64,000 nt of DNA from assembly GCF_000172155.1 (NCBI RefSeq), contig NZ_ABIZ01000001.1:4435105-4499104 (forward strand). Reading direction: 5' to 3'. How positions within the stretch are numbered: position 1 is the stretch's first letter; each line of letters begins with the position of its first letter. Shown in pieces: positions 1,257 through 43,441 of the stretch. The notes below the pieces were generated by a model. It was not told the DNA's origin, made no database searches, and saw only the letters and a program-made list of their open reading frames with translations. This DNA comes from Verrucomicrobium spinosum DSM 4136 = JCM 18804. GTDB lineage: Bacteria; Verrucomicrobiota; Verrucomicrobiia; Verrucomicrobiales; Verrucomicrobiaceae. Made by a program: the position numbers and the translations under genes.

Positions 1257-1379
1257 TTCTGGATTGTAGGGAACTGGCGAGGGTGACTGGCTCTAAAGAG
1301 GGCCGATTGTGGACACATTTTGCCGGATTGGAAAGTGAACTTTACGGAAACAAATAGCGGACGGACGGGGTCATTCCCA

Positions 1380-2735: not shown

Positions 2736-2852
2736 GAACTGGGCTGACTGTACTGGACCAAGGCAGAATGACCCGGCCTGAGATGAGCCAGAGCAGCTCC
2801 TCAAACCGGGTCAGACACATTTAACTCTTTTTAAGGGAATCGAAAGCGACTT

Positions 2853-5482: not shown

Positions 5483-8400
5483 CTACCGTCTTCTGCGCCG
5501 CAAGAAGAGGCAGCCCAGCCCGAGCAGCAGCAAGCAGGCCTTCGATGGCTCTGGCACCACGACGACCACCACCCCATCCGAGAGGAACAGACTGCGATCC
5601 CACTTCAATCCAGTTCCGAGTGTTGGCAGAATGAGATCCAAGTTTACATCCCACTGCCCGTCCGTCGTCAGGGGGTTGGCCAACGTGGCCCAATCCATAA
5701 GATCCAGCATGTCACCAGCCACAAAGGTACGTGTACCGCCGTCAACCACGATGAGCCCCCCTGCTTCCAGCGTAAGCGTGCCCTTGATATCAAGCTGGTC
5801 ATGAGCACCCAGCCCAAGCTCACGCAAGCTTGTCCCCGATCCGTCGATGTCTGAAAAGTCCAGCCCGGCCAAGTAAGTTGCAATGGCGCTTTCGCTGAGC
5901 GTCTGAATAATCGAATCGTTGTAGAGCATTTCGAAGCTGCTGACTTGGAACAACAACCGGGGCTCGGCAGACAAACCACCTCGCTTGACCATGAGATCTC
6001 CAGCGAAGGTCAAGCGGTCGATTTCCGAAAGCCGGCTGCCAGCATTGATCACCCCTCTCTCACTCACCACCACATTGCTGTTGATCGTTCCCTTGCCGCC
6101 AAGCTGACCACCGGTCACGCTGATCCTGCCAGCTACGGTTCCAGACGAGTAGCCATCCACAAGCAGCCTCCCTGCAGTCACCTTGGATTCGCCCGTCAAG
6201 GCATACCGAGTGGACACCTCCGTGGTACCCGATCCCGCCTGCACCAACGATCCGGCTCCTCCCACATCTCCAAGCACCACATCTCCAGAACTGTTCACCG
6301 CCAGTGTGGCTCCGGTGGCAATCTGCACCGCCCCGCCAAGAACGACGGAGGTGGCCCCGCCATCGCCAAACTGCAATGTCCCGGCAGAAACGGATGTGGA
6401 TCCGGAGTACGTCAACAGGCCCGACAACACCTGCGTGCCCGCGCCAGACTTCTCGATGGAGAGGGGCGAAACCCCATCCTCAATCTTGCCTGCATACTTG
6501 TAAGTCTGCCCGGCAGCCACTGAAACACCCAATACAGAGGCCGATGAGCCTCCGTTTCTGACTGAGCTGGTCGCGTCCACGCCTGACAGGCCGCCCACCG
6601 CTTCTGAATAGCCATCGAGATCAAACATCCCGGTCTGAACCAGAGTGAGGACGGAACTGTTGTTGATCTGATTGGTCTGACCAAGGCGCAAGATCCCAGT
6701 GTTGTTGACCACAATGGATCCGGCAATTGCATCCACTCCGGCGGACTTTCTCAAGAGCAAGACGCCAGCGTTGATCACCGTGTCACCTGTGTAAGTGTTG
6801 GCGACAGTACCCGAAAGTGCCAGAATGCCATTGCCGCTCTTTGTCAGCCCAGCTTCCGCATTGTAGTAACCATCGTTGGTCTCAGTGTCACCGCTGGAGA
6901 TGACACCGCTCAATTCAAGCTCCACACCTGCCGTCCCAATCCGGAATTCACCGCCGCCAGAATACAGGCGAACATTTCTGCTCGTCTGCGCACCCGCTGA
7001 CCCAGTGTACTCAAGGATACCGTTGTTGAACGACAGACCGTTCGATCCCGCTGTGGACTGGCCAATGTTGCTGTCGCCAGTGTCAGAAATCTTTGCGACA
7101 GAGAGAATCCCCCTGGTGGCACCGCCCGAAGAGCCATTGATGTAGGTCCCCCCAGAGTAGGTGTTGCTGCCAGAGAGAACCATCTTCCCGGCTCCTGATT
7201 TGGTCAGCGCCGTAGCACCCGTGTTGTCGGCGATGATGGACTCGATAAAAAAGTCTGCCCCCGCGTTGTTCTGGTGAATGATAAGATCACCACTGACAGA
7301 TCCCATCAGGGTTCCGCCCGTGATGCGCGTCGCGTTCCCAGCGACAGTGGAGGTCACCAGAATACCTCCAGAACTGATGACGTTGGATCCCTGAAGCGTC
7401 AGGGTGACACCTGCTGCGGTGTTGAAACGCAAGCTGTTGATGGTGAAGTTTGCCGCCGGACCCTGGCTGCTGGTGATATCCACATTGTTCGCCGCCACCG
7501 TGAACGAATTGGTCTGAAAGGAGGACAACCCGGAAATGGTGATATCTGTGCCGGAGGCACCGCTCACCGCCCAGGTATTGCCGCCCCAGGTCGCATACCC
7601 GCCAATGATACCGTTGGTGTTGAGGGTGCTGGTCGTGAACGCAACCACCGGCGAAGAGGTATTGGTGATGTTCAACGTGGCACCGACAGCGCGGTTGATG
7701 ACATCAAGGTGAATCACTTGGCTTGTCGCAGTGTGAGTCAGAGCGGAAGCCCCGGCCTCAATGCGCAAGCCCCCACCGGCCACCCGGAAGGTGGTGGCGT
7801 TGCTGCTGCCGTCCCGGATCCAGTTACCTCCGCGCAGCGTGATACCCTTGCTCACAGCAGCCACGTTGTAGAACCTCAGTGTCGCATTGGAGTTGATGTA
7901 GATAGTGTTGCTGGCATTGCCGAGAGCGTTGGCACCACCGCCAAAGGTGAAGTCGCCCTGCTTGACGTAGAGATCTCCCAAGTTGGTCGTCCCCCCGCCT
8001 TCATAAGTGACCTGGGACGAGCCGATCTTCGTAAGGGCGAATCCTGCGGCAGATAGCGTACCATCGAAGTCCAAGCGTTTGGTGCTAGTGTTGATCGTGG
8101 TGTTTCCTGCCAGGATGACGTTGTTTACCCGGACCTGGTCTGCCCCACCACGTAGTGAAGTGACGTTGGCCAGAGAAAGCGCCCCCTGCCGGTTGTACCC
8201 TTCGCCAGTAAGCGTGATGGCTTCCGTGTAGGTGCCCTCCGCTGTGAACTCCAGAGTCGCACCATCCTTCACAACGGTTCCTCCCGCAGTCGTTCCAAGC
8301 GCATTGGCGTGCCCCACCACCAGTTTACCAGCATCAACATTCACCGCTCCCGTGAAGGTGTTGTTGCCAGCCAGTGTGACCGTTCCCAGCCCCACCTTGG

Positions 8401-11400
8401 TCAGCGCTATTCCACCGGTACCATTGATGATGGTGCCGTAGTAACTGCTGGAGGCATCCCCGGAACCCACCGTCAACAGAGCTTGCGTGACGGCCGTGTT
8501 CGTGATCACGCCCAGTGTGGCCTGAGGGCTGGCACTCGAGAGCGCTCCTGCTGTGACATTGTACCCATTGAGGTCCAGCGTGCCGCCTTCAATCGCAAGC
8601 CGGTTGCCCACCGCCACTGCCTGGGCGTTGCCCAAGCGCAAGGTTCCGGCATTCACAGTGATCCCGCCAGTAAAGGTATTGCTTCCCGCGAGAACAACCG
8701 CCCCTGCACCGCTCTTGGTGAAAGCCACCTCACCAGTTCCGTTGTTCCCAATGGATGCCCCAATGGTCAATGTGGAGGCGGCAGCAGTCTGATGCACCAC
8801 CAGTTCACCGGTCGTATTGGCACTGGTTCCCGCTGTGAGGGTGCCATTGGTGATGGCACTGTCAAAGTTACCGCTCACCAACAATCCGCCTGATTCAATC
8901 CGAAGCGTGTTACCGCCCAGATCCACAGTCGTGGCCCCAACCTGCGCGAGGTTCAGGGAGTTCACATTGCGGCTGGATGTGAGCGTGGAACTTGCCGTCT
9001 GCTTGATGTTCTGCTTGAAGGTCCACGTGCTGACAGCGGTGTTCAGCGCATAGTCAGCCCCAGACATGGCGGTCACACCAAAGGAGCCATACTTGGCAAA
9101 CTCCGTGCCCACCGTGGCCCAAGCTCCGATCAGTCCATGATCCTGGGTGGAAGGCACTGTATTGAACCGGATCTGGTTCTGCAAATCTCCGCCCAATCCT
9201 GTCCCGACAAAATCCACTGTGGAATAGTTCAGGCGATTCAGAGAGGCGAATGTGAGCTGGGAGGTAAATCCCCCTGCTGCCTGCGAGCTCGAGATGCTGT
9301 TGGCACCGGATTCCAAGTTCAGGGCGCCTGCGGTCTCTGAGTAACTCGCACTGCCTCCGTTGTGAGAGAACTCCAGCTTGCCACCGACCATGGAAATCGC
9401 GGCGCTGTCGTTGAGCCGGTTCGCAGAATTTGCGCCACTGGTATTGGTCAGACGCAGAGTGCCCCCGGAGGCGACCTGGATCGCCGTCGTACCGCTCAAG
9501 GTACCGCCACCAGAGAGCTCCAGCACACCCGCGCGGACGCTGGTGGCCCCAGTATAGGTGTTGGCACCTGTCAGACTCAAGATGCCATTGTTGATCTTGG
9601 TAAACGCCAAGGTTCCGGCCGCACCATTCTGCAGGATGCCGGAGAAGACATCATTGGTGACATTGTTCACTGTAAGCGTGCTGACCCCCGAGCCTCCATT
9701 TTCGATCACGCCATCACCGTTTGTGCTCCGGATGGTCCCCACCGTTTCGTTAAAGCCAAACAGCTGAAACACGCCACCGCCTGCTCCTGATCCCTTGAAG
9801 CTCAGAACCGTGCCCGTGTCATGAATCTGGTCGCTCGTACCGAGACGAAGGATGTCCCTGCTAGAGCCCACTCCATCACCGATGTTCACCTGGGTGTTCG
9901 TAGTGATGGAATTGAGGAACTGCGTTTTGGCCAGCCGAAGGATGCCTGAATTGACGGAGGTGGCGCCTGTGTAGGTGTTGGAACCGTTGCCCGTGAACTG
10001 CACGATCGCAGCAGGATCCACCGCCGTAATGACTAGGCCGGCACTGCCGCTGATGACGCCACTAAGCGACACCGTACCCGCTTGCGCAGTGATCTGGGAG
10101 TTGGTGGCAACGCTGATGGTCCCGGAGAAGGTGTTGGAGCCGGACTGGTTCGAAATGGCTCCGAGGGAGACACCACCAGATTGATGACCAGACCCATTGA
10201 TCACCAGGTTTTCATTAACGGTGATACCCCCACGGATTTCCAGGGTGGCCCCGCTCATCACAGTAGTGGTACTGCTGGCATTCGGTCCGAGCGCGTTGGC
10301 ATGCCGGACGTCCAGTACGCCCTGCGCAACTGTCACCGTTCCGGTGAAGGCGTTGTTGGCGTTCAGAATGAGACGTCCTTGTCCGGACTTCGTCCAGTTG
10401 GTCCCGGCCAGAATCGCGGTGATGGTGGTGCCCGCCGTGTCTGAGTAGGCATGATTGGTAGCGATCCAGGCCCCGGCAGTGAGCGTCACATTTCCGCCCT
10501 GGATGGTGTAGTTGCTACTCCCAGCATCATTGAAGGTGATGTTGTTGACCAAAACTCCACCCGCCTGGACGCTGACCGCCCCGGCGGCACCTGATCCGCT
10601 GCCGAAAATCACGTTCAGGGTGCCATCGGAAACGAAAGACGTGTTGGCACTGCCAGTCCACCAGTTCGTGTTCGGGGTGACGGCCCAATTACCTGCTCCG
10701 TCTTGAGCACCATTGGTACCGGTGTTCGCATCCCAGACCAGAGCATTGGCCAGCACCACGATGGTGCCGTCCACCAGAAGACGGCTCGTGTCCCAATAGG
10801 TATTGGCGGAATCCGAAAGTTTCATCGCCCCGATATCCAGCAGCATATCGGCGATGCTGCGATCCAGGACCGACATGGTCCCCCAGTCAAAAAGCTTGAG
10901 TGACTGGTTCGCGGTCCAGAGGTTCGAGGAGACCGCGTTGTTGTTGACGATGAGCCTGCCGTTGAGATCCACGGTGCCTGAGCCGGTGAACTTGATTTGA
11001 TCAATGCCGCTGGCCGACCACACATCCAGACTGATCACGCCATCATTCACCAGTGAGCCCGCGAAAGTCAGTGTCTGGGCCACCGTTTGACCAAAGACAC
11101 CCACGCTCAGAAGACCATTGGCCGCGATGGAAGTATTGCCCCCGATAATTCCGTTGCCGGACAGCGTGGCGCTGGCTGCTACCGTGACAGCACCACTTCC
11201 GGAACGAGCCGTGCTGGTTGCCGATCCCGTCCCAGCACCCATCTGCAGAGTGCCTTCATTGATGCTGGTGGTCCCAGTGTAGGTATTCACACCAGAAAGG
11301 ATCTGCGTCCCCGTGCCGACCTTGGTCAGAGACACCGCACCGGATCCTGTCCCATCATTGTCCTGGATGATCCCGGCGTAGCCTGTGCTGGACGCAGAAG

Positions 11401-14074
11401 TCAGGTTTGTGACGCTGGACGCATTGCCATTGCCAAACGTCAGGTTCTGACTGCCTGCGCCGTTATTTCTAATGATGGCACCTGCTGATCCCGACAAGAG
11501 ACCCACACTCTGGCTGGTGCCATTAAGATCCACCACGCCCGCTGCCCCCACCGTGAGGTATCCGATTGAGGCTCCCAGTTTGCCAGCCCCGCTAAGGCGC
11601 AAAATGCCGCCATTGACGATGTTCCCGCCAGTGTAGTCATTGTTCCCATTGCTGATGACAAGAGTGCCAGCTCCGGTTTTCGTCAGTGTACCCTGTGAGG
11701 AGAAAAATCCTTCATCCGCGGCGAGGGCCTCTCCGGAGATCTTTCCAGAGATTTCCACCGTCACCCCGGCAGTGACCACCTCCAAAACTCCGCCCCCTGA
11801 GAGCAGATTCACATCACGGCTGATCGTGCCATTCGCGCTAGTGTTCGAATAGCGGAGCGTGCCGTTGTTGAAGTAGAGATCATTGGTCGCGCTGTTGTCC
11901 CCGAGGTTGTCATTCCCACTCGCCGTCACGTTGGTGACCTGAACCACTCCAGTGCCGATGGTGCCGCTGTTGTTGCCACCGTTGATGTAAGTGCCCCCAC
12001 TGTACGTATTGGTGCCGGAAAGAATCAGCGTTCCCGTGCCCGACTTGGTCAATGCCGTGGCTCCACCGTTGTTGCGAATGGTTGAACTGATCGTGAGCGC
12101 TTGTGATGCATTCTGAATCACCACCAGATCTTGCGAATTACCGCTTTGAAGGAAGCCACCGGCGATACTCGTCGCACCCGCCCCGGTAACCAGCACCCCC
12201 CCGCTCCCAAGAGTCAACGACTCCCCCGCTCCAATGGTCAGATTCGCCAACGCGGTCAAACGCAGAGAATGAATGGTGCGGGTGGAGATGCTGGCCGCAG
12301 GATCACCCGCCAGACTGACGTTCTCCGTCGCCAGCCATGTGGAAGAATCACTGCTCGTCTGGAAGGAAGCATCCACCAGTCCACCGATGGCACCATCGTC
12401 CGTGTCCGGTCCGTTCACCGCCCAGGTGGTGCCGCCGTAGGTAAAATACCCGCCCAAGATTCCATTGGTATTGCGAGTGTCGGTGGTGGCAAGAGTCTTG
12501 TAGGTCGTGGGGCCCACCACGAGAACGTCATGGTCCACTGTGGCCCCCACGCTGCGATTGATCACGTTTAGCCCCCAGATCAAACCGTGGACGGTTGAGT
12601 TGCGGGCGATGCTGGATGCCCCAGCGTTCAGGGTGATGCCTCCCGTTATGCCGATCGTCGTGACGTTGACGTTGGTGCTGCCACCGCCGCGGCGCAGCGT
12701 ACCACCGTTCAGAGTGATCCGCTTCAGGTCGCTTCCCTTGTCGTAGGTTTGCAGGACAGCTCCCGTGTTGATGAAGATCGTGTTCCCAAACGTGGCACTG
12801 GCATCATAGCCCATGTCCGCGCCGCCACTGAAGTTCAGCGTCCCCTGCTTCACGAAGACGTTGCCCAGGTTTCTGGTGTTGCCCCCTTCCAGCGGCAGTT
12901 CCCCAGTTCCCAACTTGGTGAGACTGAACCCTGCCGCGTCAAAGACGTTGTCCATATCGATGCGGGAGTTGTTGAAGATGGTCGTGTGTCCGGTCAGGTA
13001 CACGTTCATGGCGCTCTGGTTTTGGCCGCCATTTTTGATGAGGGCCCCCTGCCCGTTCACCCCGCGTCCTTCCAGAGCGATGTACTCATTGAAGGGCTCA
13101 TTTGCGGTTCCCCCGCCGGAAAGGTCCAAGGTGGCCCCATTCTTCACAAGAACCCCGTTGACCGCCGTGCTCCCTGAAGTTCCTAGAATGGTAGCCGTCG
13201 TACCCGTAGTAGCTGGGTTGATGGCCAAAGTACCCTCATTCACCACAATCTGCCCGGTGTAGCTCGGGCTCGCCGCGTTGAGCACCAGGATTCCGGTTCC
13301 CTGCTTGGTCAGCGTGCCACTCCCAGACAATGCACTGGAAAAGTTGATCAATCCTCCATTGGTGTTGATCACAGCTCCACCTGCGCCAATGGGGTCCAAC
13401 TGGTCAGATACATCATCGGCCACACCACGCCCATATCGAAGCGTCGCTCCATTGATGATCAATCTACCTGTGCCAAGCGCCGCAGCAGACCCGATTTCGG
13501 TCACACCACCTGAGAGAGTGATGTTGCCCGTCAAGACATTGGCACGATTCAGGTACAATGTCCCACTGCCGGTCTTTTCAAGCGCACTGCCCCCCTTCAA
13601 TACCGCATCGATCAGAATGTCCGAAGAGGAGGCCCGGAACTCAAACGACAGCCCAGTCGGCTGAATCAGTAGAGACAAGCCAGACAGGAACTGGAGATTG
13701 GAGCCACTCCCGTTGATCACTGCGGCTCCCGTGAGGGTGAGGGTGCCGTTGCCACCCAAGATCGTGGAGGTGCCCGTGACGCTTTGCGTCAAATCCCTGA
13801 CATTGACCTCATTCGTGATGTTGACCAAATTCGTCCCACCTGTCTGGAAGTAGGCGTCCCCGCCGTCTGCCCATGCACCTGGCGGCGTGGTACCAGGAGA
13901 GTCAAACGACTGCCAAACGTTGCTCTGCCAGTTTACCGCCGTGGGTGCAGGTGTTAATCCAGAAGCGCTGCTGCTGTCGAAGTACTGCCCGAAACCTGGT
14001 AGCGATGACATCACGCCGACGGAGGCGAGGATCAAGCAACGGGAGGCGGCAAAGAAGCGTGTCGTGGTCAACAT
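5483..14074 (-). CDS. Giant autotransporter-associated beta-strand repeat protein with PEP-CTERM tail
   Basis: A predicted 2,863-residue exported protein starting MLTTTRFFAASRCLIL with a signal peptide. Almost the whole length is built from beta-strand repeats of the autotransporter-associated type, with recurring motifs such as LTKSGTGTLILSGTNTY, YTGATSVNAGTL and NGGTLRLG every 30-60 residues, implying a long parallel beta-solenoid. Larger modules recur, marked by NTNGILGGYFTYGG / NTNGIIGGYATWGG with TWAV just after. The C-terminus is PEP-CTERM-like: VVPEPSK, a hydrophobic helix (LLLLGLGCLFL) and a terminal RRRRR. There is no C-terminal outer-membrane barrel, so sorting rather than autotransport is likely. 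An in-frame start 26 codons upstream is possible. Probable role: surface or matrix structure or adhesion; the ligand is unknown. No frameshift is seen. Confidence 0.9.
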   Translation of the reverse strand: MLTTTRFFAASRCLILASVGVMSSLPGFGQYFDSSSASGLTPAPTAVNWQSNVWQSFDSPGTTPPGAWADGGDAYFQTGGTNLVNITNEVNVRDLTQSVTGTSTILGGNGTLTLTGAAVINGSGSNLQFLSGLSLLIQPTGLSFEFRASSSDILIDAVLKGGSALEKTGSGTLYLNRANVLTGNITLSGGVTEIGSAAALGTGRLIINGATLRYGRGVADDVSDQLDPIGAGGAVINTNGGLINFSSALSGSGTLTKQGTGILVLNAASPSYTGQIVVNEGTLAINPATTGTTATILGTSGSTAVNGVLVKNGATLDLSGGGTANEPFNEYIALEGRGVNGQGALIKNGGQNQSAMNVYLTGHTTIFNNSRIDMDNVFDAAGFSLTKLGTGELPLEGGNTRNLGNVFVKQGTLNFSGGADMGYDASATFGNTIFINTGAVLQTYDKGSDLKRITLNGGTLRRGGGSTNVNVTTIGITGGITLNAGASSIARNSTVHGLIWGLNVINRSVGATVDHDVLVVGPTTYKTLATTDTRNTNGILGGYFTYGGTTWAVNGPDTDDGAIGGLVDASFQTSSDSSTWLATENVSLAGDPAASISTRTIHSLRLTALANLTIGAGESLTLGSGGVLVTGAGATSIAGGFLQSGNSQDLVVIQNASQALTISSTIRNNGGATALTKSGTGTLILSGTNTYSGGTYINGGNNSGTIGTGVVQVTNVTASGNDNLGDNSATNDLYFNNGTLRYSNTSANGTISRDVNLLSGGGVLEVVTAGVTVEISGKISGEALAADEGFFSSQGTLTKTGAGTLVISNGNNDYTGGNIVNGGILRLSGAGKLGASIGYLTVGAAGVVDLNGTSQSVGLLSGSAGAIIRNNGAGSQNLTFGNGNASSVTNLTSASSTGYAGIIQDNDGTGSGAVSLTKVGTGTQILSGVNTYTGTTSINEGTLQMGAGTGSATSTARSGSGAVTVAASATLSGNGIIGGNTSIAANGLLSVGVFGQTVAQTLTFAGSLVNDGVISLDVWSASGIDQIKFTGSGTVDLNGRLIVNNNAVSSNLWTANQSLKLFDWGTMSVLDRSIADMLLDIGAMKLSDSANTYWDTSRLLVDGTIVVLANALVWDANTGTNGAQDGAGNWAVTPNTNWWTGSANTSFVSDGTLNVIFGSGSGAAGAVSVQAGGVLVNNITFNDAGSSNYTIQGGNVTLTAGAWIATNHAYSDTAGTTITAILAGTNWTKSGQGRLILNANNAFTGTVTVAQGVLDVRHANALGPNASSTTTVMSGATLEIRGGITVNENLVINGSGHQSGGVSLGAISNQSGSNTFSGTISVATNSQITAQAGTVSLSGVISGSAGLVITAVDPAAIVQFTGNGSNTYTGATSVNSGILRLAKTQFLNSITTNTQVNIGDGVGSSRDILRLGTSDQIHDTGTVLSFKGSGAGGGVFQLFGFNETVGTIRSTNGDGVIENGGSGVSTLTVNNVTNDVFSGILQNGAAGTLAFTKINNGILSLTGANTYTGATSVRAGVLELSGGGTLSGTTAIQVASGGTLRLTNTSGANSANRLNDSAAISMVGGKLEFSHNGGSASYSETAGALNLESGANSISSSQAAGGFTSQLTFASLNRLNYSTVDFVGTGLGGDLQNQIRFNTVPSTQDHGLIGAWATVGTEFAKYGSFGVTAMSGADYALNTAVSTWTFKQNIKQTASSTLTSSRNVNSLNLAQVGATTVDLGGNTLRIESGGLLVSGNFDSAITNGTLTAGTSANTTGELVVHQTAAASTLTIGASIGNNGTGEVAFTKSGAGAVVLAGSNTFTGGITVNAGTLRLGNAQAVAVGNRLAIEGGTLDLNGYNVTAGALSSASPQATLGVITNTAVTQALLTVGSGDASSSYYGTIINGTGGIALTKVGLGTVTLAGNNTFTGAVNVDAGKLVVGHANALGTTAGGTVVKDGATLEFTAEGTYTEAITLTGEGYNRQGALSLANVTSLRGGADQVRVNNVILAGNTTINTSTKRLDFDGTLSAAGFALTKIGSSQVTYEGGGTTNLGDLYVKQGDFTFGGGANALGNASNTIYINSNATLRFYNVAAVSKGITLRGGNWIRDGSSNATTFRVAGGGLRIEAGASALTHTATSQVIHLDVINRAVGATLNITNTSSPVVAFTTSTLNTNGIIGGYATWGGNTWAVSGASGTDITISGLSSFQTNSFTVAANNVDITSSQGPAANFTINSLRFNTAAGVTLTLQGSNVISSGGILVTSTVAGNATRITGGTLMGSVSGDLIIHQNNAGADFFIESIIADNTGATALTKSGAGKMVLSGSNTYSGGTYINGSSGGATRGILSVAKISDTGDSNIGQSTAGSNGLSFNNGILEYTGSAGAQTSRNVRLYSGGGEFRIGTAGVELELSGVISSGDTETNDGYYNAEAGLTKSGNGILALSGTVANTYTGDTVINAGVLLLRKSAGVDAIAGSIVVNNTGILRLGQTNQINNSSVLTLVQTGMFDLDGYSEAVGGLSGVDATSSVRNGGSSASVLGVSVAAGQTYKYAGKIEDGVSPLSIEKSGAGTQVLSGLLTYSGSTSVSAGTLQFGDGGATSVVLGGAVQIATGATLAVNSSGDVVLGDVGGAGSLVQAGSGTTEVSTRYALTGESKVTAGRLLVDGYSSGTVAGRISVTGGQLGGKGTINSNVVVSERGVINAGSRLSEIDRLTFAGDLMVKRGGLSAEPRLLFQVSSFEMLYNDSIIQTLSESAIATYLAGLDFSDIDGSGTSLRELGLGAHDQLDIKGTLTLEAGGLIVVDGGTRTFVAGDMLDLMDWATLANPLTTDGQWDVNLDLILPTLGTGLKWDRSLFLSDGVVVVVVPEPSKACLLLLGLGCLFLRRRRR

Positions 14075-14354
14075 GGCTAGGGGAGGGGCCAAATAAGAAC
14101 AGAATTTTCCCGGGAATTCATACAAAAACTTGGATGTACGAGATAAATGCAAAAGTCTGGTGTTGAGGGTCTGCCGACTTACTGGCCACCACGCCCCGTA
14201 ATACAGGCTTTTCCCTACCTCAAGCCAAGCAAACCATTTAACCCAGGAGAGCCCAAGCTCTCAAATTCCATGAGTTTGGTCCGAATGTCCCCAATAATCG
14301 GCACCGCTTCTCCGTTTAGCCTTGTCCCGCCGGAGGTGCCGTAGGCACCAGGCG

Positions 14355-18336: not shown

Positions 18337-18361
18337 GGGTTGGAGTACCGCTTTAAAGCGG
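18337..18361 (+). repeat. GGGTTGGAGTA stem-loop repeat, copy 1
   Basis: A conserved head GGGTTGGAGTA is followed by the stem CCGCTT-TA-AAGCGG at 18348-18361. The same head with a differently paired stem occurs at 43379-43441, and an inverted copy lies at 18863-18885. Confidence 0.75.
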
Positions 18362-18626
18362 AATCACGCCTCACATGTTCCTTGAAGTGAATATCTCCCC
18401 AAAATACCCAGTCATCGCCAACCGGTCCTGCGCATCCCAGCGACGCAAAATCAGAGAACACGCGCCTCCTGATTCCGCTTAAAAGCCAATGCCATCAGGG
18501 AAATCGGAGCCTTGGTTCCATCATCGCATCAAAGCTAGCATCTGGCTTTTGCATGGCATTTACCAAGCGGCTTGATTCGCGGTGACGGAGCCGAAGCTGA
18601 GGGCCAAAGGCCCGGATTCATACCAG

Positions 18627-18645
18627 CCCTGGGCAGCGCCCAGGG
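18627..18645. repeat. CCCTGGGC/GCCCAGGG hairpin
   Basis: A perfect 8-bp stem (18627-18634 and 18638-18645) with a 3-nt loop sits in a longer context (GGCCAAAGGCCCGGATTCAT just upstream) that has the look of a dispersed intergenic repeat. Confidence 0.6.
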
Positions 18646-18666
18646 TTTGGGATTCCTCAATACATT

Positions 18667-18739
18667 CAGGGCTGTAGGCCCGGCCTCATCAAGCCTGCGC
18701 ACGACGAGCATCCCTGCACGACGCCGGGCCTGCAGCCCT
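18667..18739. repeat. Long inverted repeat around 'GGGCTGTAGGCCCGGC'
   Basis: The arm at 18667-18684 pairs with 18723-18739 with about two mismatches over 17-18 bp, leaving a loop of about 38 nt. It adjoins the hairpin at 18627. Confidence 0.55.
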
Positions 18740-18862
18740 CAACATCTAAAACCAACGCCAACCTTGAGCGTTGCCCAAGGCTGTTATGACTCCGGGCTTT
18801 CAGCCCTCAGCTCTTTCGCAAAGAGGATCATCAGCCTCGCCACACTTTCCCTGATGGTATTG

Positions 18863-18885
18863 GCTTAAAAGCGGTACTCCAACCC
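18863..18885 (-). repeat. GGGTTGGAGTA stem-loop repeat, inverted copy
   Basis: On the minus strand the GGGTTGGAGTA head is followed by CCGCTTTTAAGCC, an imperfect version of the same stem. It is inverted relative to the copy at 18337. Confidence 0.7.
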
Positions 18886-20203: not shown

Positions 20204-21457
20204 TTATGCGACGCCTGCTGTCCCATAGACGGGGGGCTCCAGCCCAGGCAGATACACGCTTTGCGGGCTGGCTCGCATCTTCCATGGACCGCCTGCTGTC
20301 CCATAGAACGCCAGCAATCTGAGCAGATCCACCCGGCTCCAAGTCACCCCTCGGATCATCGTGAAGAGGCGGGTGAAGCTGTGCGGCCAGCCCGATACTT
20401 GTGCCAGGAACCGCAGCAGCACATAGAGCAACAGGGCCGCCCAGAGCTGCCAGCGGATCGCGTTTTTGCTATGTCCCAAAAAATCACAGATGCAGAGCGT
20501 TTGCTTGATCTGCTTGAAGAACACTTCAATGCCCCAGCGGCTCTGGTAGAGTTCTCCTACCGTGCTGGCGGCCCATTCTGTCTGGTTGGTGATAAAGGCC
20601 ATGCGCACTTCCTTGCCGTCAAGCTCCACGAGCATCTCCACCCGGCGCAGCGGGCCGGGATGTTGCGAAAGGCTCCTGGCTCCTTTGAGCACAATGAGGT
20701 CATCGCGCAGCACCTTGCCTTGCGGCCGTGCCTGGAGCTTGCGCGTCACCCGGTAGCTCATGTTGTCCTTGGCACGGGTGACCCAGAAGATGCCCCGCCC
20801 AGTCAACTCCCAGAGGTGGGCAAAGTTGATGTAAGCCTTGTCAAACAAGGCAATTTCCCCGTCTTTGAGGCTGGCACAAAGCGCGCGGGAGCGCGAGTCA
20901 TCATGATGAGAGGCTTCTTCGATGATGGCAAAGGCTGGCAGGAAGGTTTGCAGGTTGAGACGCAAATGGAGCTTGGCCGCCGCCTTGCGCTGCCGGTGCT
21001 TGGCCCAACTCATACAGTTGGCCACCAGGGCGATGGTGCTGGAGTCGATGGCGTAGATGGCCCGTCTAAACCGCCGGGGCAGTCCTTCATAGCGCAGGCC
21101 AAACCCGGGGTGCCGATGCTGGAGATGATCCAACATCTTCCAAAAGAGGGTCTCCATCAGGTCGCTGTCCCGATTCTTATTGGCATGGGACAGGGTGTTG
21201 CGGGCTGGCGGTGTCGCTCCGCGGATGGCAGCGAGGGCCCCGGCATGATGCCTCAAGCTGTCGCACACATCGTTGAGACTGATGGAGTGTGTCAGTTGCG
21301 CGTAGAGCAGGCTGACCACGTGACTCCAGGAACTGAAGGTGCGCGGCTGGCTGCCGTGGTGGTGTTGAGCGCAGAGGTTCGCGACCAAGTGCCCGGGAAT
21401 GAGCTTGCAAAGCTGCCCCAGAACGCTTCCAATGACTTTGGCTGGTTTGAATTTCAT
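20204..21457 (-). CDS. IS4-family DDE transposase
   Basis: A 417-residue transposase with an N-terminal DUF4372-like helical part (GHLVANLCAQHH, SWSHVVSLLYAQLTH) and a DDE domain. The putative triad is Asp138 (YAIDSSTIAL), Asp206 (ALFDKAYINF) and Glu311. The IS4 signature Y-x2-R-x3-E-x6-K is present as Tyr304, Arg307, Glu311 and Lys318 (YQSRWGIEVFFKQIK). The frame is intact and of normal length, so it may be functional. The C-terminal tail runs close to the left end and carries a short repeated YGTAG motif. It starts at ATG 21457, 65 bp inside the right terminus. Confidence 0.95.
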   Translation of the reverse strand: MKFKPAKVIGSVLGQLCKLIPGHLVANLCAQHHHGSQPRTFSSWSHVVSLLYAQLTHSISLNDVCDSLRHHAGALAAIRGATPPARNTLSHANKNRDSDLMETLFWKMLDHLQHRHPGFGLRYEGLPRRFRRAIYAIDSSTIALVANCMSWAKHRQRKAAAKLHLRLNLQTFLPAFAIIEEASHHDDSRSRALCASLKDGEIALFDKAYINFAHLWELTGRGIFWVTRAKDNMSYRVTRKLQARPQGKVLRDDLIVLKGARSLSQHPGPLRRVEMLVELDGKEVRMAFITNQTEWAASTVGELYQSRWGIEVFFKQIKQTLCICDFLGHSKNAIRWQLWAALLLYVLLRFLAQVSGWPHSFTRLFTMIRGVTWSRVDLLRLLAFYGTAGGPWKMRASPQSVYLPGLEPPVYGTAGVA

Positions 21458-23382: not shown

Positions 23383-26300
23383 CTACTCAGAAATCAATTT
23401 ACCACCACGACTAAGAACACGATTTATCTCTCCCCAGGTAACGGATCCTCTACGCACAGCGTCAAAAGGAGTCACCAGCCTCACAGGGAGACCTGCATCA
23501 ACGCCACCATCGATCCACGCATCGTTGATTCCCGGAGTCCAATCACGATCGGCCATTCGAAGCGCCTGCCATCCGTCCTTGGCCTGTTCAATTGCTGAAT
23601 CGCCATGCCCTATGACCAGCCCGGATTTTGCTTTGCTGGCATTTTGGTATACTTCCCAGGCTTTTTCCGCCTCTTTCGGATTTGCAAAGGTTCGTCCCTT
23701 CGCAAACGCTTCGAACGACGCGGCGATCCTATCAGAAGCTACTTTTGCGGCTCGCTTGGTTCCAGCTTTTATCCCGTCATCACCGTGCCTGAACAATCCA
23801 GTTAGCTTCTTGCCCACAGTTCTACCGAAAGGCAATACACCCAACAAAGTGGCACCCCCGCTCACCCATTGATTAACTGACTCTCCCGTAAGTGGGTCTG
23901 AACCTGTTACCGTCTCCCACACTCCCTTCGCTGACCCCGCAAAAGGAAGAGCGTCACTAACCGTAGAATACATCTGTCTTCCAGCCTTGCCGTCATTCTC
24001 AAAACCAAACGCGTGTTCATGCCGTGAGCCGTGTGGAGTCGTCCAATCTAGTCGCGTTCCATTGTCGTCAATCGTCCAACGAACCTTCGAACCATCAGGC
24101 ACGTCGACCTTCTCTCCACTAGCTTCCACCTCCAATAGTCCCTCTGGATCAAAGCTCGTCCACGGATTCTGCCGCACGTACGCATACAAGTTGGGGCCAT
24201 CCACAAACCCCGCAGGATCCTTGGTCAAGAATGTACCCGTCTCCAGATCACGGTACCGGAATCCCTCATTCAGCAGCCTTGTCGGATCTTCATCTTTCGA
24301 ATTCGCCTTTTGCCGATCCAACGTGCTGCCAGCCTCGACGGTACGCGTTCCGAAGGCCTCATAGCTGGCTTGATAGGTTAGCGCCCCCCCCTCATCGGTC
24401 TTGGCGATGATGTCACCCCGCACGTTGTTGTGCGAGTAGCTCGGCACGCTGGCACGCAGACTGTAGAGCATGCCTCCCACGCCGCCCCCCATTCCATTCC
24501 CACGAAGGTATTCCACGCTCAATACCGCGTCCTCAAACTCCTGCACAGCCAGTCCACCACTAAAGACGACTTTTCTGGTCTTGGTTGTGGGACCGTCGAT
24601 CTCAACCACTTCCACCCGCCGGGTCCGGTAGTCATAGGCATGCAGGAACTCCCTGTCGTTTGCCCTTGGATCATAGACCCTCACCAGTCGGTTCTCATAG
24701 TCATAGTCGTACTCGGCGTCATCCTCCCCGGCGAACTCCCGGGTCCGGCGATTGCCATTGAGATCATAGGTGTAGACAGTGGTATCGGCCCCCGTGGTCG
24801 ACGAAGTCAACTGATTTGCAGCGTTGTAGGCATAGCTGGTTGTCCCTGGTGTTGAACCACCGGTAATCACCCGCAACGAGCGGTTGTTGGCTGTGTCATA
24901 GCTGTAGGCCGTCGTTACAGTCCCGCTGCCGGTCGTGGTGGTGGACTCATTCACCAGGCGATAGACATCATCATAGGTGTTGACCACGGTGCGATTGGCC
25001 AGACCGGAGGGATAGACCTCGGACACCTGAACGACATTGCCTACCAAGTCGTGCTTAATGGTCTGCGTATAAAGCAGGCCAGAAGTAACAGTCAGCCCCT
25101 GAATCTGTGTCGCCCTATTCAGCGCGTCATAGAGGGTGGTAGTGGCATCGCCGTTGGGCAGAGTGCGAATGGATACCGCCCCGCTCGCATTGTAGGCATA
25201 GCTCGTGGTTCGGCCGTTTTCCGTCATCGTGGCCAACCGGTTAAGTGAGTCATAGGTGCTTACAATCTCCCGGCCCGTACCGCCGTAGGTCACCAGGGTT
25301 CGATTGCCTGCCAAGTCATAGCGATACTGATGAGTAACGCCGCCGGAAGTTTCGCTCTGCGGACGATTGAGTGCATCATAGGTGTAGGCTACATCGGCCT
25401 TGCCGCCCTTCCCCGCCTCCGTCACGGTGAGCAAGTTGCCCACCGCGTCGTAGCCATAGACCCGATTGTCCACCGTGCGCCCTATATAGGTCACCGTCTG
25501 CAGCCGGTGGCGGTCGTCATAGCCGTACTCTGTCCGTTGCCCTTCGGCATCCACACGAGCGGCCTTGTTTAGATCGTTGTATTCAAAGACCGTCTCTCTG
25601 TTCAAAGCGTCCCGGACGACAGTGTTGCGGCTCAACCCGTCGTATTCAAACTCCGTGCGCTGGTTCTTGCCATCAATCACCGCGGTGCGATTCCCCACTT
25701 TATCGTATTCATTCGTCACCACCATGCCCTCAGCGTCCGTGGTTGTATGCAGTCGATTCAGGGCGTCGTAGGTATTGGTCGTCACCTTGCCATTGGGATC
25801 GGTGACCGTTCTCACATTGCCATTTTTGTCATAGGTCGTAGTCACCACAGGTCTCGCCGTGGTGCCGTCAGGCTTGATCACGAGAGGTGCCGTCACTGTA
25901 TGGACCCGGTTGGCCTCGTCGTAGACCGTGTCCGTGGTGAACCCTCTCGCGTCTGTGACCGCTACGACATTGCCCACGGCGTCATATCCTGTAGACGTAG
26001 TAGGCCGCATGAATACAGCATTCTCCGCATCCCACACTTCAGGCTGCTGCTCCCACACTTTTCGGTTGCGTGAGTCATACCCGATATCCGTGCGCTGTCC
26101 CAGAGCAGTGACTGCTGCCACGACGTTGCCCGCCTCATCGTACTCACTACGAATCACTGGATTTCTATTCTCTCCGGAGATGGCATCCAGCACAGATGGC
26201 TGCGTCACCTTCACTGGCCGGCCCGCCCCGTCGAATTCGGTCACCGTTTGCCGACCCAGCTCATCCTCCACCTTCCATTTGAGTCCCGTTCCCGTATAGA

Positions 26301-29300
26301 ACATCTTTTGGGTGGTCGAGTCCGCAAATGTAACCTGCTTGGGCCGGTTGAGAGCGTCATAGGCAGTGTGGGTTGTCTTGTTGAGCGAATCTGTGACCGC
26401 AGTGACATTGCCCACATCATCATAGTCAGTGATGGTGGTCGCAAAGATGCCAGCCCCTCCGTACTGGACGCGCGTTTCAGTGGGCCGGTAGAGCGCATCA
26501 TAGGTCACACCCGAGACATAGCCCCGGGGATCCTCCGTACGGGTGGGCTTGAACGGAGTGGTAGCAAACACTCCGCCTCCGCTGTTGGCTCCATACTGAT
26601 ACACAGTCACCTGGCTCAGCGGGGCGTGAATTTCCTTCAATCTCTGCAGCCCGTCGTAGACATAGCTGGTGGTGTTTCCTTCAGGATCGGTCGAACTTTC
26701 GCAGGAACCCACCGCATTCCAGGTCTTCGTGGTGACCAGATCGGGCCCATCCATCACACGCGTCTCGGTATCAATCCGGTTAAGCGCGTCATAGGTCCAC
26801 TTGGTGAGGCGATTGTTCTCATCCGTTTCCTCCGTCTTGTTCCCACGCAGATCGTATTCAAACTCCTTGTCCGCGCCTCCAGGGTAGGTGACTTTCTTCA
26901 GACGGTTTCGCCGGTCGTATTCAAAGTACGTGGTCTTCCCGCGAGGGTCTGTAGCGGAGACCTTGTTCCCGTTGGAAGCATATTCATAGACCGTGACCAG
27001 ATCAGGTCCGTCCATCTCAACAACCTCGCTGGCGACGCGTCCCGCAGAGTCTGGGATGAAACGGGTGATCAGGTCTGATGCCCAGCCAGGATCCCCTGAA
27101 GCGCTGCGCACGATGCGCTTGGTGACAAAGCCTGGGAAGATCGAGTTCCCATACTCAAAGTCTGTCTGCTGGGCCAGCGCTCCATTGCTGCCATAGATGG
27201 ATTCCCGGGTACGGCGGCCAAGATGGTCCGTGAGGTAGCGGGATTCCCGCCCTTCCTCATCGGTCACCTTGGTCATGATGCGCCGGGGATCATATTCAAA
27301 TCTTTTGCTCTTGCCCAAGGCGTTGGTCTGCTCCGTGGGATCGTCATAAACCCCGTTTAACCCGGTTTCCAGCAACGGAAGGATCTGACGGTAAGTCTGG
27401 GGGGCATTCCAGACGTCCTCGTATTTATACGTCGTGATATTGCCTGACAAGTCACGGGCCATCACCAAGGAAAGCCCGGCCTCTTCATCAAACGTAAATT
27501 CTTCAAAGCCATGCCCCTCATGCGTGACTTTCATCTTCCGATAGTAAACAATCTTGGGATCGGCAATGGAGCTGCCAATGGGAGCATACTCATGGAAGTT
27601 GCCTATCTCACAAACCACCCCATCCGACCATTCGTAGCTTCGTGCGTGCCCTTCAGCGTCGATGACCCGGGTCTTACGCAAGCTGTCTCCAGCAAGACGG
27701 GCAAACCCCAGGTTATCACGCTCAATCTTCGTGGTAGAATAGTTCTGGAATTCCGCAGTCCCCAACCCATCCGGCAGAAACACCTTCTTGATCATCCTGG
27801 GGAGCCCGGTGGTCACGTAGTAGCCGTTCAGCGACATGTCTTGTGAGTTCCATTGAAAGGCATACTTCCCCTTCCCTAGATTGTTCCCATCATGATTGAA
27901 CATGTACTCGAACTCATAGCGATTGCCGTTGGAGTCCTGCACCGAGGCCATATCACAGTGCAGGTAGGCCATGCCGGGATCGGTGGAATCCGGAGGTCGT
28001 GGTGCCAGGTCGTCTTCTGTAGCAACGTTATATGTATAGCGAGTGTCTGCACCATTTGCGTCAGTGACCTTTTTCAACAACCAGACATATCGATTGGGAT
28101 TGGTTGCATAGACAAATTGCTCGTACTCAAACTCCGTCTTGTTCCAATTGGGATCCCAAATGGCAGTGATCAACCCCGCATCATTCTGACTGATAAAGAT
28201 GGCCTGGTCGGATCTGCCCTCCACGCTTATGACCTTGGGAACCAGTGTATGACTAGACTGGTAGTCGTAGACCAATTTTTGCCCCAGGCGGTCTGTCACG
28301 GAAGCCAGACGATAGAATACGGAGGAATCAGGAAGGCTCCCCCCAGTGAGCCGGTCTGCCTCGATATGATAGTTCAAAGAAGTCGGAGTGAAGAGGGCGA
28401 CAGAACCAAATTTCTTTTTGAAAATCAGATTCCCATCGGCCGTTTCCTCAAGACTGGTCAGGAACGTGGAACGCTCGTGTTTGGCCGTTGGAAACGGAAC
28501 GTACCGCGTCTTGTACTGCTGATTCACCAGTTCCGAATACATGGCGAATCGGTGCGTGGAGCCATTTTCATCCGTCACGCTGGCAAATCCCGGGTCCGTA
28601 GCTGTGGCGCCCACAAACTTGATATGAGCAGTCAAGTTGGACCCCCAGGCCGCTCCGAAAGGAAGATCGGGCCGCTCATGCGGTCTCAAGCCACTGCGCA
28701 GACTCCATATTTCGGACTGGGAGCTGCGCCTTACCTCAAGGGGCAACTCACTTCCCGGCACTGAGACAAAGGCATCCGTGACCTGGTGGCGGAATCCCAA
28801 GGTCATGGCATCGATGAAGGTTTCTTCTGATTGCTGATCGTCCTCCGCTTCAGCTTGAGGCTTGCTGTCAGGCAACGGCCTGCCGTTCAGTGCTATCTTA
28901 CGATAGCGTGCACCCGAAGCTTCGTCAGACGGCACACTGAGATTCTGACGAAGTTTCTCGTGATAGAACGTGATCTCATCCGTGCCGATCACCGTGCCAT
29001 CCGCTGCGCGGACGGTCAATGTCAGCACCAACTTTTCCCCATGTACTGCATCCTCAGTAGCCCGGATCGACAGCGGCACGCGTGATCCCAAATTTCCGAC
29101 GGTGTAGCCGCTGGATATTTCTCCACCAGCATACAGATGAAAGCGACTGGCATTGGTCCAGGTCAATGTCACCGTCGTCCCAGGTATCCTCCCGCCTTCA
29201 ATCGAAAACCCTGGACTGCCGTTTACAATCTCATCCAGGTCTTCTAGAACGGTAGTCTGGACTCTGCGACCCTCAGCCTCACGCTCCTCCAAATCCAATG

Positions 29301-32300
29301 TTCCGCTCCGGTCCCAAACTTCCAATCTCTGGGCCCGCGCCAGGTAGTATCGTCCATTTTTCTGAGAATGCGTCGGGTCGATTTCGTACTCTTGAGTTTC
29401 CGGATTCGAACTTCCACCTGCGACGAAGGTTCGCTTGGCGACGATGGTTGTACGCTGTTCACGAGAGAGAGGATTCTCTGGATCATACTCCTCTTCGAAC
29501 ACTTCATACCATTCGATCGTCCTCGAACCTGAAGGATTAAACTCTATTTTGTATTTGAGTTTCAGCACCCCAAAAATTTCCCAACCAGGACTCAAATGTC
29601 GGGATGCCACGACTCCTCCGAGTTCACTCCTGTCCAAGGCAATATAGTCTCCTTCCGCTCCTTGCGCCAAGCCTGTGTCATCATACGACTGAGACCCCCA
29701 CAATCTCTGCCATTCCGCCGGATAGTCGGGCATCAGTCCCAGAACGTCTGCAATAAAGTCTTCATGCAGATATTCATCTGATAATTCGATCTCCTCATCG
29801 CCAGAAACGTCGGGATCATTTCGATGCGACACAAAATGTGTCGGCGTAGCAACTACTTCACCTCCTACAGATGGGTCCCAATAGCCCCTGAAGTACTGGC
29901 CAGCTCCGTCATACCACCCTCCCTCGAATGGATCCATGTAATAACTATCTACAGTTACCTCATCAGGATCTGGCCATGTGTCTCTAGTCGTGATGGTCGC
30001 ATCTCCATCAAACAGGGTCAGGTACTGAAGCCGCCCAGTGGCTGGATCTGGCGCTGGATCTATCAACGTTTCAGAAAAGAAGCTCACGCTTGTAATCGTG
30101 TGGTCTATTTCGGTTTCAGACGACACCCGGCGAACTTCCCTGAGATAAACTTTGGGTGGCGAGGATGGATTCGTGAGTTCCCAGAATCCCATCTTCTCCC
30201 CTCCGGTCCCAGCTTGCTTGTAGAGCACGCTCTTGACAAACGGCAATCGATACCTCCCCTCTGGCGACGGTTCAGCACGATATCCCCTCAGAGAGGCTAC
30301 AATCCTGTAGTGATAGCGCACTCCGGAGAGCAGTCCCGAGTCACTGAACTCCATGTCTCCAGAGCTGCTTTTGGTGGCCACTACCCTCCAAGATCCGGCA
30401 CCGTCCTTGCGTTCAACAAGATACAGGAGATCCGGCTGCGGTGGAGCGGATGCGTCCCATCGCACCGTCACCTTCGTGGCATCATAGTCACCACCTTCCG
30501 TCGGTGGCCAATCTTCCCGATCTGTGGGATACACCGTAATGGTCTGTACACGAAGAGGCGAGACTGGAGGGTCCATGACCGGGATCAGGCCGTTGCCGCC
30601 GGGGTTGGGGGGAGCATTTGGGTTGGGCACAGTGCCTCCTGAGTCACCACCCAAAGTGCCTTGAGATACATAAGCCGTCAGTTCCGATGCAATTGGCGGA
30701 ATAGTGCCCGCTCTCACAGCGATTTTCTGGATGGTGTCAGAGCTAAGGGTGTAGCTCAATGAAAGCCCCCCATTGACGTCAGTCGCATTTGCCAGTGCCG
30801 ATGGCTGGCCCGCGCCCCCCTGAATCTCCCCAGCGCCCCGAGTGACCAGGCAATTGAGAGGGAGTCCTACAACAGCCAAGCCACTCTGCGTAGTGACCCG
30901 GACAGCCATCGGCACCGGAAGAAGCTGTCCCGACTGGCCAATTTGATTATTGCCGGCCACGATGGCCATCTGCGGCCGAGACCCTTCTTCCAGAACTATT
31001 CTCACCGGCTCAGACACTCCATACCCGCCGATGTTGTCGTAGGCACGAGCTGTAAGCATGTGCTCACCGGCGGGCAGATTGGGCCACCACTCCAGAGCAT
31101 ACGGAACGGAATTGTCCTCGGCCAGTAGTACTTCCCCTGCGTAGAATTCCACCTTGGCGATCACGCCACTGTTATCCGAAGCAACCGCCTCAAGTGCGAC
31201 ACTTGAGGTACCATTGAAGACGACATCCGACTCTGGGCTGACGAGTGCCACGGTGGGAATGGGGTCCACTTCCATCGTCACCGGCACCACCACATCCGCA
31301 AGTCCAGGAACATGGTGCAACACCCGGATTACCCCTTCAAAAGTCCCTCCCTCGAGAGGCCCAGATTCACAGATCACTTCTAGCTGCTCGCTTTGACCTA
31401 CAGGAACACTCCCCATCAAAGGCGCAACTTTCAGCCATTCATGCTGAGGAGCCAGACGGACGGCCAACGCCGGCTTCACATAGGCTTCATTTGCCGCCAC
31501 CGTCTGTCCATGCTGTGAATCATCCTGAACTCCCACCACCACACCGCTGTCAACCGGACCGGAGATGGTTTTGTAGTAGAAAAATATTGAACCGTCTTTC
31601 TTAAGCACCACTTGAAAGGTTGCCGCACCAGCAACGCCGTGAAACGGAACATTCTCAAACTGGATGATGCAGTAAGTACCGTAGTCCAATACATAGACAC
31701 TTCCCCCGGCAAGAGCATCAATCTTGCCCGCGAGTGGTGCGATGATGTGCTGTGGCAAATCCCAAGTGGGCATCGCATTCCCATAGGATGCTCCCTGGAT
31801 CGAACTTCCTGGTGCCCCCAGCGTGACAAAGCCACTGGCATTGACATGGACCTCTGAATACTCACGTCCATAGAACGGGAATGAAAAACCAAGCTCCAGA
31901 CGTTGGAAATTCCTGCCTGCCGCAACATCGGGGACCAACTGCACGCCCGTCGCACTAATGTCATTCCACTGGTAGAGCGGGCCATTCTCCGCGTCAGAAT
32001 CTGCCCATTGATAAGACTTGCCCTTGGCAGTCTCCGCTGAAGCGTTTTCAACAAAGATCTCGTACTCGACCGCCTCTGTTCCTTGGTTGGTTAGAGTCAG
32101 CGTGATGATCTCAGAATTCCCCGCAGAGAGCACAGTCTCAATGGGGCTGGGCGTCGCATACACACTTGGCAGCGGGATCTCAAAGACAACGGGGGCGCCA
32201 CTGCCAGCCGTGGCCGCTACCTGGCACCCTGGCACCGCCTGGGACGCACGCTTGAAGAAGATCTGGCATTTTCCATCTCCGCCTGAGCGCACCCCCTGAG

Positions 32301-35253: not shown

Positions 35254-35440
35254 GAAGAGGGGAAATCTTGTTTCATCGAACCAATGAACCCAGCCAATCC
35301 AAGGAGTTGGTTCGGGAAGGGCTTTTCTCAATCCGCATGTATTCTTAATTTACCCACCCCTCATCGGCAAGCGGGCCTTTCGGCCTCTGCTGCAAACAAA
35401 TCGTTGCATTCAGAATTGCGATGCGGCGACGCGATCTTGC

Positions 35441-42766: not shown

Positions 42767-42814
42767 CACTGATCCACTGAGTTACTGAATCACCGATTTA
42801 CTGATTTACCGAAA
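42767..42814. repeat. 48-bp array of six degenerate 8-bp repeats (YACYGANT)
   Basis: Six units in exact 8-bp phase: CACTGATC, CACTGAGT, TACTGAAT, CACCGATT, TACTGATT, TACCGAAA. The array fills most of the gap between the inositol monophosphatase and ispF, and its last base is the A of the ispF start codon. A similar 48-bp array is at 54030-54077. Confidence 0.85.
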
Positions 42815-43360: not shown

Positions 43361-43374
43361 CATTGAATCCGCGC

Positions 43375-43441
43375 CCGCATAAATGCGGAACTCCAACCCT
43401 CTCCGGTCCAACTACAGGGTTGGAGTACCGCATTGATGCGG
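43375..43441. repeat. Inverted pair of GGGTTGGAGTA stem-loop repeats
   Basis: Two copies face each other. The minus-strand copy has stem CCGCAT-AA-ATGCGG at 43375-43388 followed by ACTCCAACCC. The plus-strand copy has GGGTTGGAGTA at 43418-43428 and stem CCGCAT-TG-ATGCGG at 43428-43441. The copy at 18337 has CCGCTT-TA-AAGCGG instead, so the stem changes while pairing is kept. Confidence 0.8.

Follow-up and report, generated by a model that had tools for sequence, protein, structure and literature searches.

REP sequences and their RAYT enzymes are domesticated single-strand transposases, and the way in which such enzymes read their target has been measured for few of them. The heads already described in the text of PMC3733652 are GTAG, GTGG and the degenerate forms GYAG, GYRG, GTRG and GTMG, and the same text reports REPs and RAYTs from the Verrucomicrobia, in O. 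terrae. In Marinomonas, REP-Mb is given in PMC8266576 as GTAG, 2 nt, a 5 bp stem and a TTTA loop; according to the measurements in that text T12, T13 and A15 are required, while position 14 is free. REPs are also known as targets of insertion sequences (PMC1525189).

Here we analysed a stretch of 64,000 nucleotides from Verrucomicrobium spinosum, referred to as the window (G000:C1:4435105-4499104), within its own genome of 8,220,857 bp (G000). It holds short hairpins at 18337-18885 and 43375-43441, which are very probably REP elements of a GGAG-tagged family, likely copied by a RAYT of the HuH-Y1 class. This reading is directly supported by copy number, covariation, conservation of head and loop, genomic placement, the gene neighbourhood of the RAYT family, and the predicted fold and the motifs of the enzyme.

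Hairpins in the window

Five matches to the head with at most one mismatch were observed in the window, three of them exact, as against a mean of 0.72 and a maximum of 4 in 100 shuffled sequences; one of the five, at 56714, counts as a match to the head only. The features, in window positions, are as follows.

18337..18361, plus strand: whole type-A REP, centre TA, with head GGGTTGGAGTA and stem CCGCTT/AAGCGG at 18348-18361
18342-18345, plus strand: guide-like GGAG of the whole type-A REP, from the sequence
18470..18486, minus strand: second type-A REP, 3' half, on the far side of the insertion, from the sequence
18477..18486, no strand: target-site duplication GCTTAAAAGC, left copy, perfect 10 bp
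18487..18862, no strand: MITE-like element of 376 bp with inverted ends CAATRCCATCAGGGAAA / CAATRCCATCAGGG, inside a REP hairpin; relatives lie between paired ends in the sample described below
18863..18872, no strand: target-site duplication GCTTAAAAGC, right copy, perfect 10 bp, part of the REP 5' half
18863..18885, minus strand: second type-A REP, 5' half (head and 5' arm), split by the insertion, from the sequence
43375..43400, minus strand: type-A REP, stem CCGCAT/ATGCGG, centre TT, 3' of the gene at 42814-43293 (ispF-like, named by eye)
43416..43441, plus strand: type-A REP, stem CCGCAT/ATGCGG, centre TG, inverted partner of 43375..43400, the two heads facing each other

The stems described in an earlier note on this DNA were recovered as claimed, CCGCTT/AAGCGG at 18348-18361 (+) and CCGCAT/ATGCGG at 43375-43388 (-) and 43428-43441 (+). 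The head, which the note had called constant, is nearly so, its last base being A or T (T in the copy at 43375). The loops of the window copies are TTAA, TTTA and TTGA and differ solely at the third loop position. Each copy was folded as single-stranded DNA and compared with 200 shuffles, and two of the three whole copies clearly surpassed these (6/200 and 1/200 as good). The whole copy at 43369-43405 did not stand out (23/200 shuffles as good), which counts against the REP reading. Because the 376-bp element splits its hairpin, the copy that ends at 18885 has one half there, and folded alone this half was no better than the shuffles (152/200 as good). Rfam gave no match in the window at gathering score.

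Two long reading frames named by eye lie on the minus strand of the window, one of 2889 residues with autotransporter-like repeats and a PEP-like C-terminal tail (5483-14152), and one of 3982 residues resembling RCC1/RHS proteins (23383-35331).

Covariation of the stem and conservation of head and loop

Covariation was assessed on 170 copies picked by their 5' half (head and 5' arm) without regard to the 3' arm. Stem pairs 4 and 5 were both Watson-Crick in 160 of them, against a mean of 41 and a maximum of 61 when the 3' arms were dealt anew 1,000 times. Pair 4 was CG in 135 copies, AT in 26, TA in 2 and non-Watson-Crick in 7, while pair 5 used all four Watson-Crick pairs (CG 88, TA 42, GC 29, AT 7; non-Watson-Crick 4). 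The 170 copies had 167 distinct flank combinations, and related copies inflate such counts. The earlier note had called for a covariation test over all genomic copies: the stem covaries, and base changes on both sides keep pairing, as it had stated. Uncompensated stem changes, which it had named as contrary evidence, were few: in 16/170 copies one or more of the six pairs is not Watson-Crick, and in 6 of them the last bases pass over into the CCAATGCC end that belongs to the inserted element. At the site 3' of the ispF-like gene the same immediate flanks enclose CCGCAT/ATGCGG in G000 and CCGCCT/AGGCGG in G065, a genome of the same genus. In such a sequence comparison mutation and replacement by another copy would look alike.

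When copies were picked by stem-loop alone, GGAG stood six to three bases 5' of the stem in 154 of 161. The conserved head GGGTTGGAG lies outside the hairpin and is conserved to 88-99% per position, and the GGGTT before GGAG is also kept. Of 165 copies, 140 had TT at the loop centre and 19 had TC, and the loop was TTTA or TTCA in 159; this variation agrees with the measured needs of REP-Mb, in which the third loop position is free. Type A hence carries a conserved 5' tetranucleotide beside its hairpin, as a REP does. Since this head is GGAG and not GTAG or GTGG, we file type A as a REP variant and not as a canonical GTAG REP.

Copy number and genomic placement

The gapped search pattern TTGGAGTWCCG-NN-TTTA-NN-CGG (TTGGAGTWCCGNNTTTANNCGG), with four stem positions open and exact matches counted, gave 156 matches in G000, 96 in G065 and 86 in G066, all of one genus, and none in 65 other genomes of the family (G067, which is 76% complete, and 64 more). 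The reversed control pattern had no match in any of the 68 genomes. Each unit has GGGTTGGAGTW ahead of a 6-bp stem, the centre of which is TY in nearly all copies, and a related class of hairpins, TCCCGCATGCGGGA, is matched by a gapped pattern one base longer.

Placement was determined in a merged 1.73-Mb sample of G000, REP-enriched by choice and holding 133 of the 156 pattern copies, on gene calls from a simple codon-usage gene finder of our own. All but two of the 164 type-A copies placed were intergenic (162/164), the two lying inside genes, and one more stood at a segment edge. Convergent gaps held 70 copies (40.5 expected from intergenic length), in-line gaps 76 (90.4 expected) and divergent gaps 16 (31.0 expected). 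Neighbours less than 700 bp apart formed 60 inverted and 17 direct pairs (n=77), often 90-140 bp apart, and the spacing of inverted neighbours ranged from 24 to 671 bp. Type A is a high-copy palindrome of 20-50 nt, mostly intergenic, and shows the inverted-pair (BIME/REPIN) arrangement of REPs. Genes enclosed by REPs were seen in 3 cases in the 1.73-Mb sample, with no transposase among them by eye. The one orthologous place compared is occupied in both relatives of the genus by REPs that are arranged differently, one with a T-G pair in its stem, and so it says nothing firm on movement.

Two further families occur in G000. Type-C REPs (tgtacGGAGTACAGGCTTCAGCCTG or close forms) also have GGAG, and CGGA occurs in them too; type D has GTAG heads and a stem that is mostly CAAACT/AGTTTG, with 21 copies in the 1.73-Mb sample.

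Intergenic placement, with enrichment between convergent and depletion between divergent genes, would also fit hairpins kept for a host function, as an RNA or DNA signal (transcript end, mRNA stability, gyrase/IHF site) and not as a transposase substrate. However, a terminator would have no use for the conserved head GGGTTGGAG, which lies outside the hairpin; the two orientations both occur often (89 and 67 of the 156 matches); and RAYT genes with matching heads exist. We therefore regard a host function as an improbable explanation of the hairpins, a later host use of REPs being possible. The earlier note had seen selection for structure, as in RNA elements or REP-type sequences; the REP part of this proposal is supported, the evidence pointing to single-stranded DNA as the substrate of a HuH enzyme rather than to a role as RNA.

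A candidate RAYT in the genome

A search with NCBIfam NF047646 found a candidate RAYT gene at G000:C1:1764086-1764688, 2.67 Mb from the window, encoding 201 residues with the motifs NHYH and YVHHNP. The earlier note had suggested looking for a REP-associated tyrosine transposase elsewhere in the genome, and this gene answers that description. Type-A REPs begin 14 bp past its stop codon, and in G065 and G066 its orthologues are followed by these two REPs at an identical distance. A RAYT gene with adjoining REPs is hence present; these lie on the 3' side only in all three Verrucomicrobium genomes, which counts against the REP/RAYT reading.

The protein scored 74.3 bits with NCBIfam REP_Tyr_transpos, under the cut-off of 80, which two relatives pass, and 13.1 bits with PF01797, far under its cut-off of 23. 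The profile of its family matched 4er8 (TnpA-REP) with an E of 3.3e-11, and 4er8 was also the best fold match (E 9.7e-10) of the predicted model, which had a mean pLDDT of 89.7. The HuH motif and the Y...NP motif of RAYTs (NHYH, YVHHNP) are thus found in a predicted Y1 fold. PF01797 itself had 39 matches in G000, and we rejected this set as a source of the enzyme because no type-A REP was seen within 1.5 kb of those genes and the true neighbour is under the cut-off. Such RAYTs can escape a scan that relies on Pfam alone, and REPs may then be wrongly called orphans.

It is very unlikely that another transposase mobilises the type-A REPs, such as the subclass-1.2-like TnpA at G000:C1:1373783. 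The inverted repeats of this gene do contain a type-C hairpin (whole on one side, degenerate on the other), and its counterpart in G065 has one on both sides. Against this, GGAGT hairpins stand on both sides in 2 of 80 relatives (the best 80 of 533), so that this TnpA was rejected for want of a general association among them; type-C REPs have their own enzyme in G065 and G066, where a second RAYT (HYH) adjoins them; and the PF01797 genes of G000 are without type-A REPs within 1.5 kb.

Other genes of this kind were also seen in G000. Two other RAYTs, in L036 (G000:C1:2184232-2187492) and L363 (1665391-1668759), lie among arrayed hairpins that have GTAG heads but another sequence, at spacings of about 96 and 142 bp. 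The reading frame at 445-3267 (-) of L350 (G000:C1:2071685-2075107) encodes 941 residues with RecG domains at both ends and a RAYT-like mid-part (NF047646, 84.5 bits; no Pfam report), flanked by GGAGCGCACGC hairpins; to judge from the sequence, a RAYT was apparently inserted in frame in recG. About 15 loci (e.g. L045-L048, L052, L056) hold similar copies, several of them shortened, of a 351-residue Y1 protein with NHFH...YIDLNP.

The RAYT family and its heads in Verrucomicrobiota

Taking an E of at most 1e-25 as the mark of a close family member, we found one in 35 of the 383 Verrucomicrobiota genomes searched, G000 having one member only. Thirteen genomes had at least nine GGAGTWC-type hairpins, and a close member was present in 6 of these 13 as against 29 of the 370 others (Fisher p 4e-4, with relatedness ignored and five of the six positives falling in two genera). 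The other 7 of the 13 are without a close member, which counts against the REP/RAYT reading; one of them, G264, contains a weak and broken match close to a GGAGTWC hairpin.

We then counted hairpins within 700 bp of the RAYT genes. Among 30 loci, GTAGT hairpins were present at 16 (105 copies) and GGAGT hairpins at 7 (24 copies), with both at none and neither at 7, and fourteen other head words gave 0-5 copies each. At 80 control TnpA loci there were 0 GTAGT and 3 GGAGT. With 18 loci added, the 48 comprised 11 with GGAG, 18 with GTAG, 1 with a doubtful GTAG and 18 with none, the two words again never occurring together. That 18/48 family loci lack a G[GT]AGT hairpin inside the 700-bp limit counts against the REP/RAYT reading. 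Since related RAYTs are accompanied by GTAGT or GGAGT and never by both, we take GGAG to be the canonical GTAG head in altered form.

A profile alignment pairs residues 134, 135 and 138 of the G000 RAYT with an E, an H and an R in the enzyme from E. coli; the W94-Q95 spacing identifies these three as E100, H101 and R104. They are named in the text of PMC6006769 in connection with GTAG recognition, and D and R are given there at the first two of these places in other subclasses. The trio D-R-x-x-R is kept in 18/18 GTAG-linked and 2/11 GGAG-linked RAYTs (L377, L399) and altered in 9/11 GGAG-linked ones, a difference with a Fisher p of 5e-6 by plain count (9/11 vs 0/18); the count leaves out L404, whose hairpin is unlike the others, and 17 of the 46 rows of the tree are without a usable label. 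The head label changes at least twice on the best tree and once on supported branches. With only 1-2 independent contrasts the link between trio and head is not significant once relatedness is allowed for, and we treat it as a lead from sequence comparison, not a result. It may be, although we hold this somewhat less than probable, that this RAYT family has changed its guide between GTAG and GGAG, the enzyme changing along with it (at the trio), and that types A and C (GGAG) and type D (GTAG) in G000 perhaps have separate enzymes without cross-talk. If this is true, under the published cross-pairing model a change of guide position 2 from T to G would keep CT sites and trade CA for CC. GTAG and GGAG relatives, together with a short list of candidate residues, make guide recognition testable by swaps of residues and heads.

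The element inserted in the second REP

In the 1.73-Mb sample we located 71 ends like those of the inserted element. We classed 65 of them as abutting the arms of a type-A or type-C REP, a grouping drawn up after inspection that carries no chance level. The 29 paired copies had a 10-bp duplication with at most 1 mismatch in 6 cases and with 2-4 mismatches in 4; 19 had none, because a 16-bp palindrome replaces the REP's own stem on one or both sides. Such ends, 24 of the 71, consist of the REP head and CCG followed by the palindrome GTCCCGCATGCGGGAC in place of that stem (e.g. G000:C1:455967, 1593485 and 7022546). One copy, of 1,686 bp (G000:C1:1509811-1511496; L156:9811-11496), encodes a DDE transposase (PF01609, E 1.2e-11); its site is a type-C REP, and its 10-bp duplication is perfect. 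At REP hairpins there are 28 relatives of this insertion sequence, 317-428 bp long, some with 10-bp palindromic duplications. In G000 a DDE insertion sequence and the short elements related to it use the REPs as landing sites.

That the inverted pair at 18337 and 18885 forms the terminal repeats of one 549-bp transposon is hardly credible: the heads are inverted and 549 bp apart end to end, and the internal part of the 18337-18885 stretch has about 40 relatives in the genome, but the spacing of inverted neighbours varies (24-671 bp), and the inserted element is bounded within the REP by ends of its own and comes with 10 bp of REP sequence in duplicate, the position of this duplication contradicting REPs as transposon ends.

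The inserted element contains a GAGGGCCAAAGGCCCGG unit (window 18595-18812), further occurrences of which flank another Y1 transposase gene, at 1583655-1583996 within G000:C1:1583031-1584633. Near the REP region a 417-residue IS4-like transposase reading frame, named by eye, lies at 20204-21457 (-) of the window; its stretch at 20342 (-) also stands at G000:C1:5501174.

A possible mechanism

Returning to REPs copied by a RAYT, we infer the following course for cleavage, the guide role of GGAG and mobilisation in G000. A REP copy that becomes single-stranded, for example during replication, would be bound by the G000 RAYT of the HuH-Y1 class, which may use the 5' tetranucleotide as a guide. Its tyrosine would cut beside the hairpin and the strand would be rejoined elsewhere, the outcome being a spread of REP copies between genes. 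Such an enzyme would read head, loop and pairing and not the letters of the stem, so that the stem may drift while it pairs.

Comparison with known systems

The literature that we searched gave no report of GGAG together with REPIN and RAYT, and none of repetitive palindromes in Verrucomicrobium spinosum. No word that starts with GGAG stands in the main texts of PMC3733652, PMC2817692, PMC6006769 and PMC8266576, in which the consensus sequences are given in the figures.

As for the insertions, IS1397, ISPpu9 and ISPpu10 are likewise elements inside REPs (PMC1525189, PMC8450116); unlike these, ours is a DDE (PF01609) element with short relatives, some with 10-bp duplications.

TnpAY1 class 3, with its CnGA foot, is described in the text of PMC6006769 with atypical high-copy hairpins and listed from other phyla, and CGGA occurs in our type C. 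Its Y motif YV[VI][AENY]EQ, however, is absent from the RAYT family, which mostly has Y[IV]HHNP, and class 3 was rejected on this ground; a scan of the 1.73-Mb sample for the class 3 motif returned only two subclass-1.2-like genes. With subclass 2.8, as given in the same text, the family shares HYH in the HuH motif, a length of about 200 residues, a YIH.NP-like motif and PWH.PPH near the N-terminus. Subclass 2.8, which is defined by HYH, a YIHYNP motif and a proline-rich N-terminus, was described from Cyanobacteria, where its GT[AG]G REPs are long, although the text also mentions relatives in other phyla; here the host phylum is Verrucomicrobiota, the hairpins are short and headed by GTAG or GGAG, and some of the family has HWH. 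Among the 30 labelled rows HYH was found in 20 and HWH in 10, all of the latter GTAG-linked, with a Y motif near that of subclass 2.8.

The REP-Mb hairpins of Marinomonas (group 3 in the text of PMC8266576) share with type A a tetranucleotide, 2 unpaired bases, a short perfect stem, a TTTA loop and a free third position. Their head is GTAG, and the likeness is one of hairpin layout. Like the GTAG REPs and the RAYT/TnpA-REP of the REPtron, type A combines a short hairpin, a 5' tetranucleotide, high copy number, intergenic placement and inverted pairs with a HuH-Y1 enzyme beside cognate copies; it differs in that the head is GGAG and not GT[AG]G and in that the enzyme falls under the Pfam Y1_Tnp cut-off. 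REPs and RAYTs of this genome are thus of a known kind, while the GGAG head and its group of enzymes look new.
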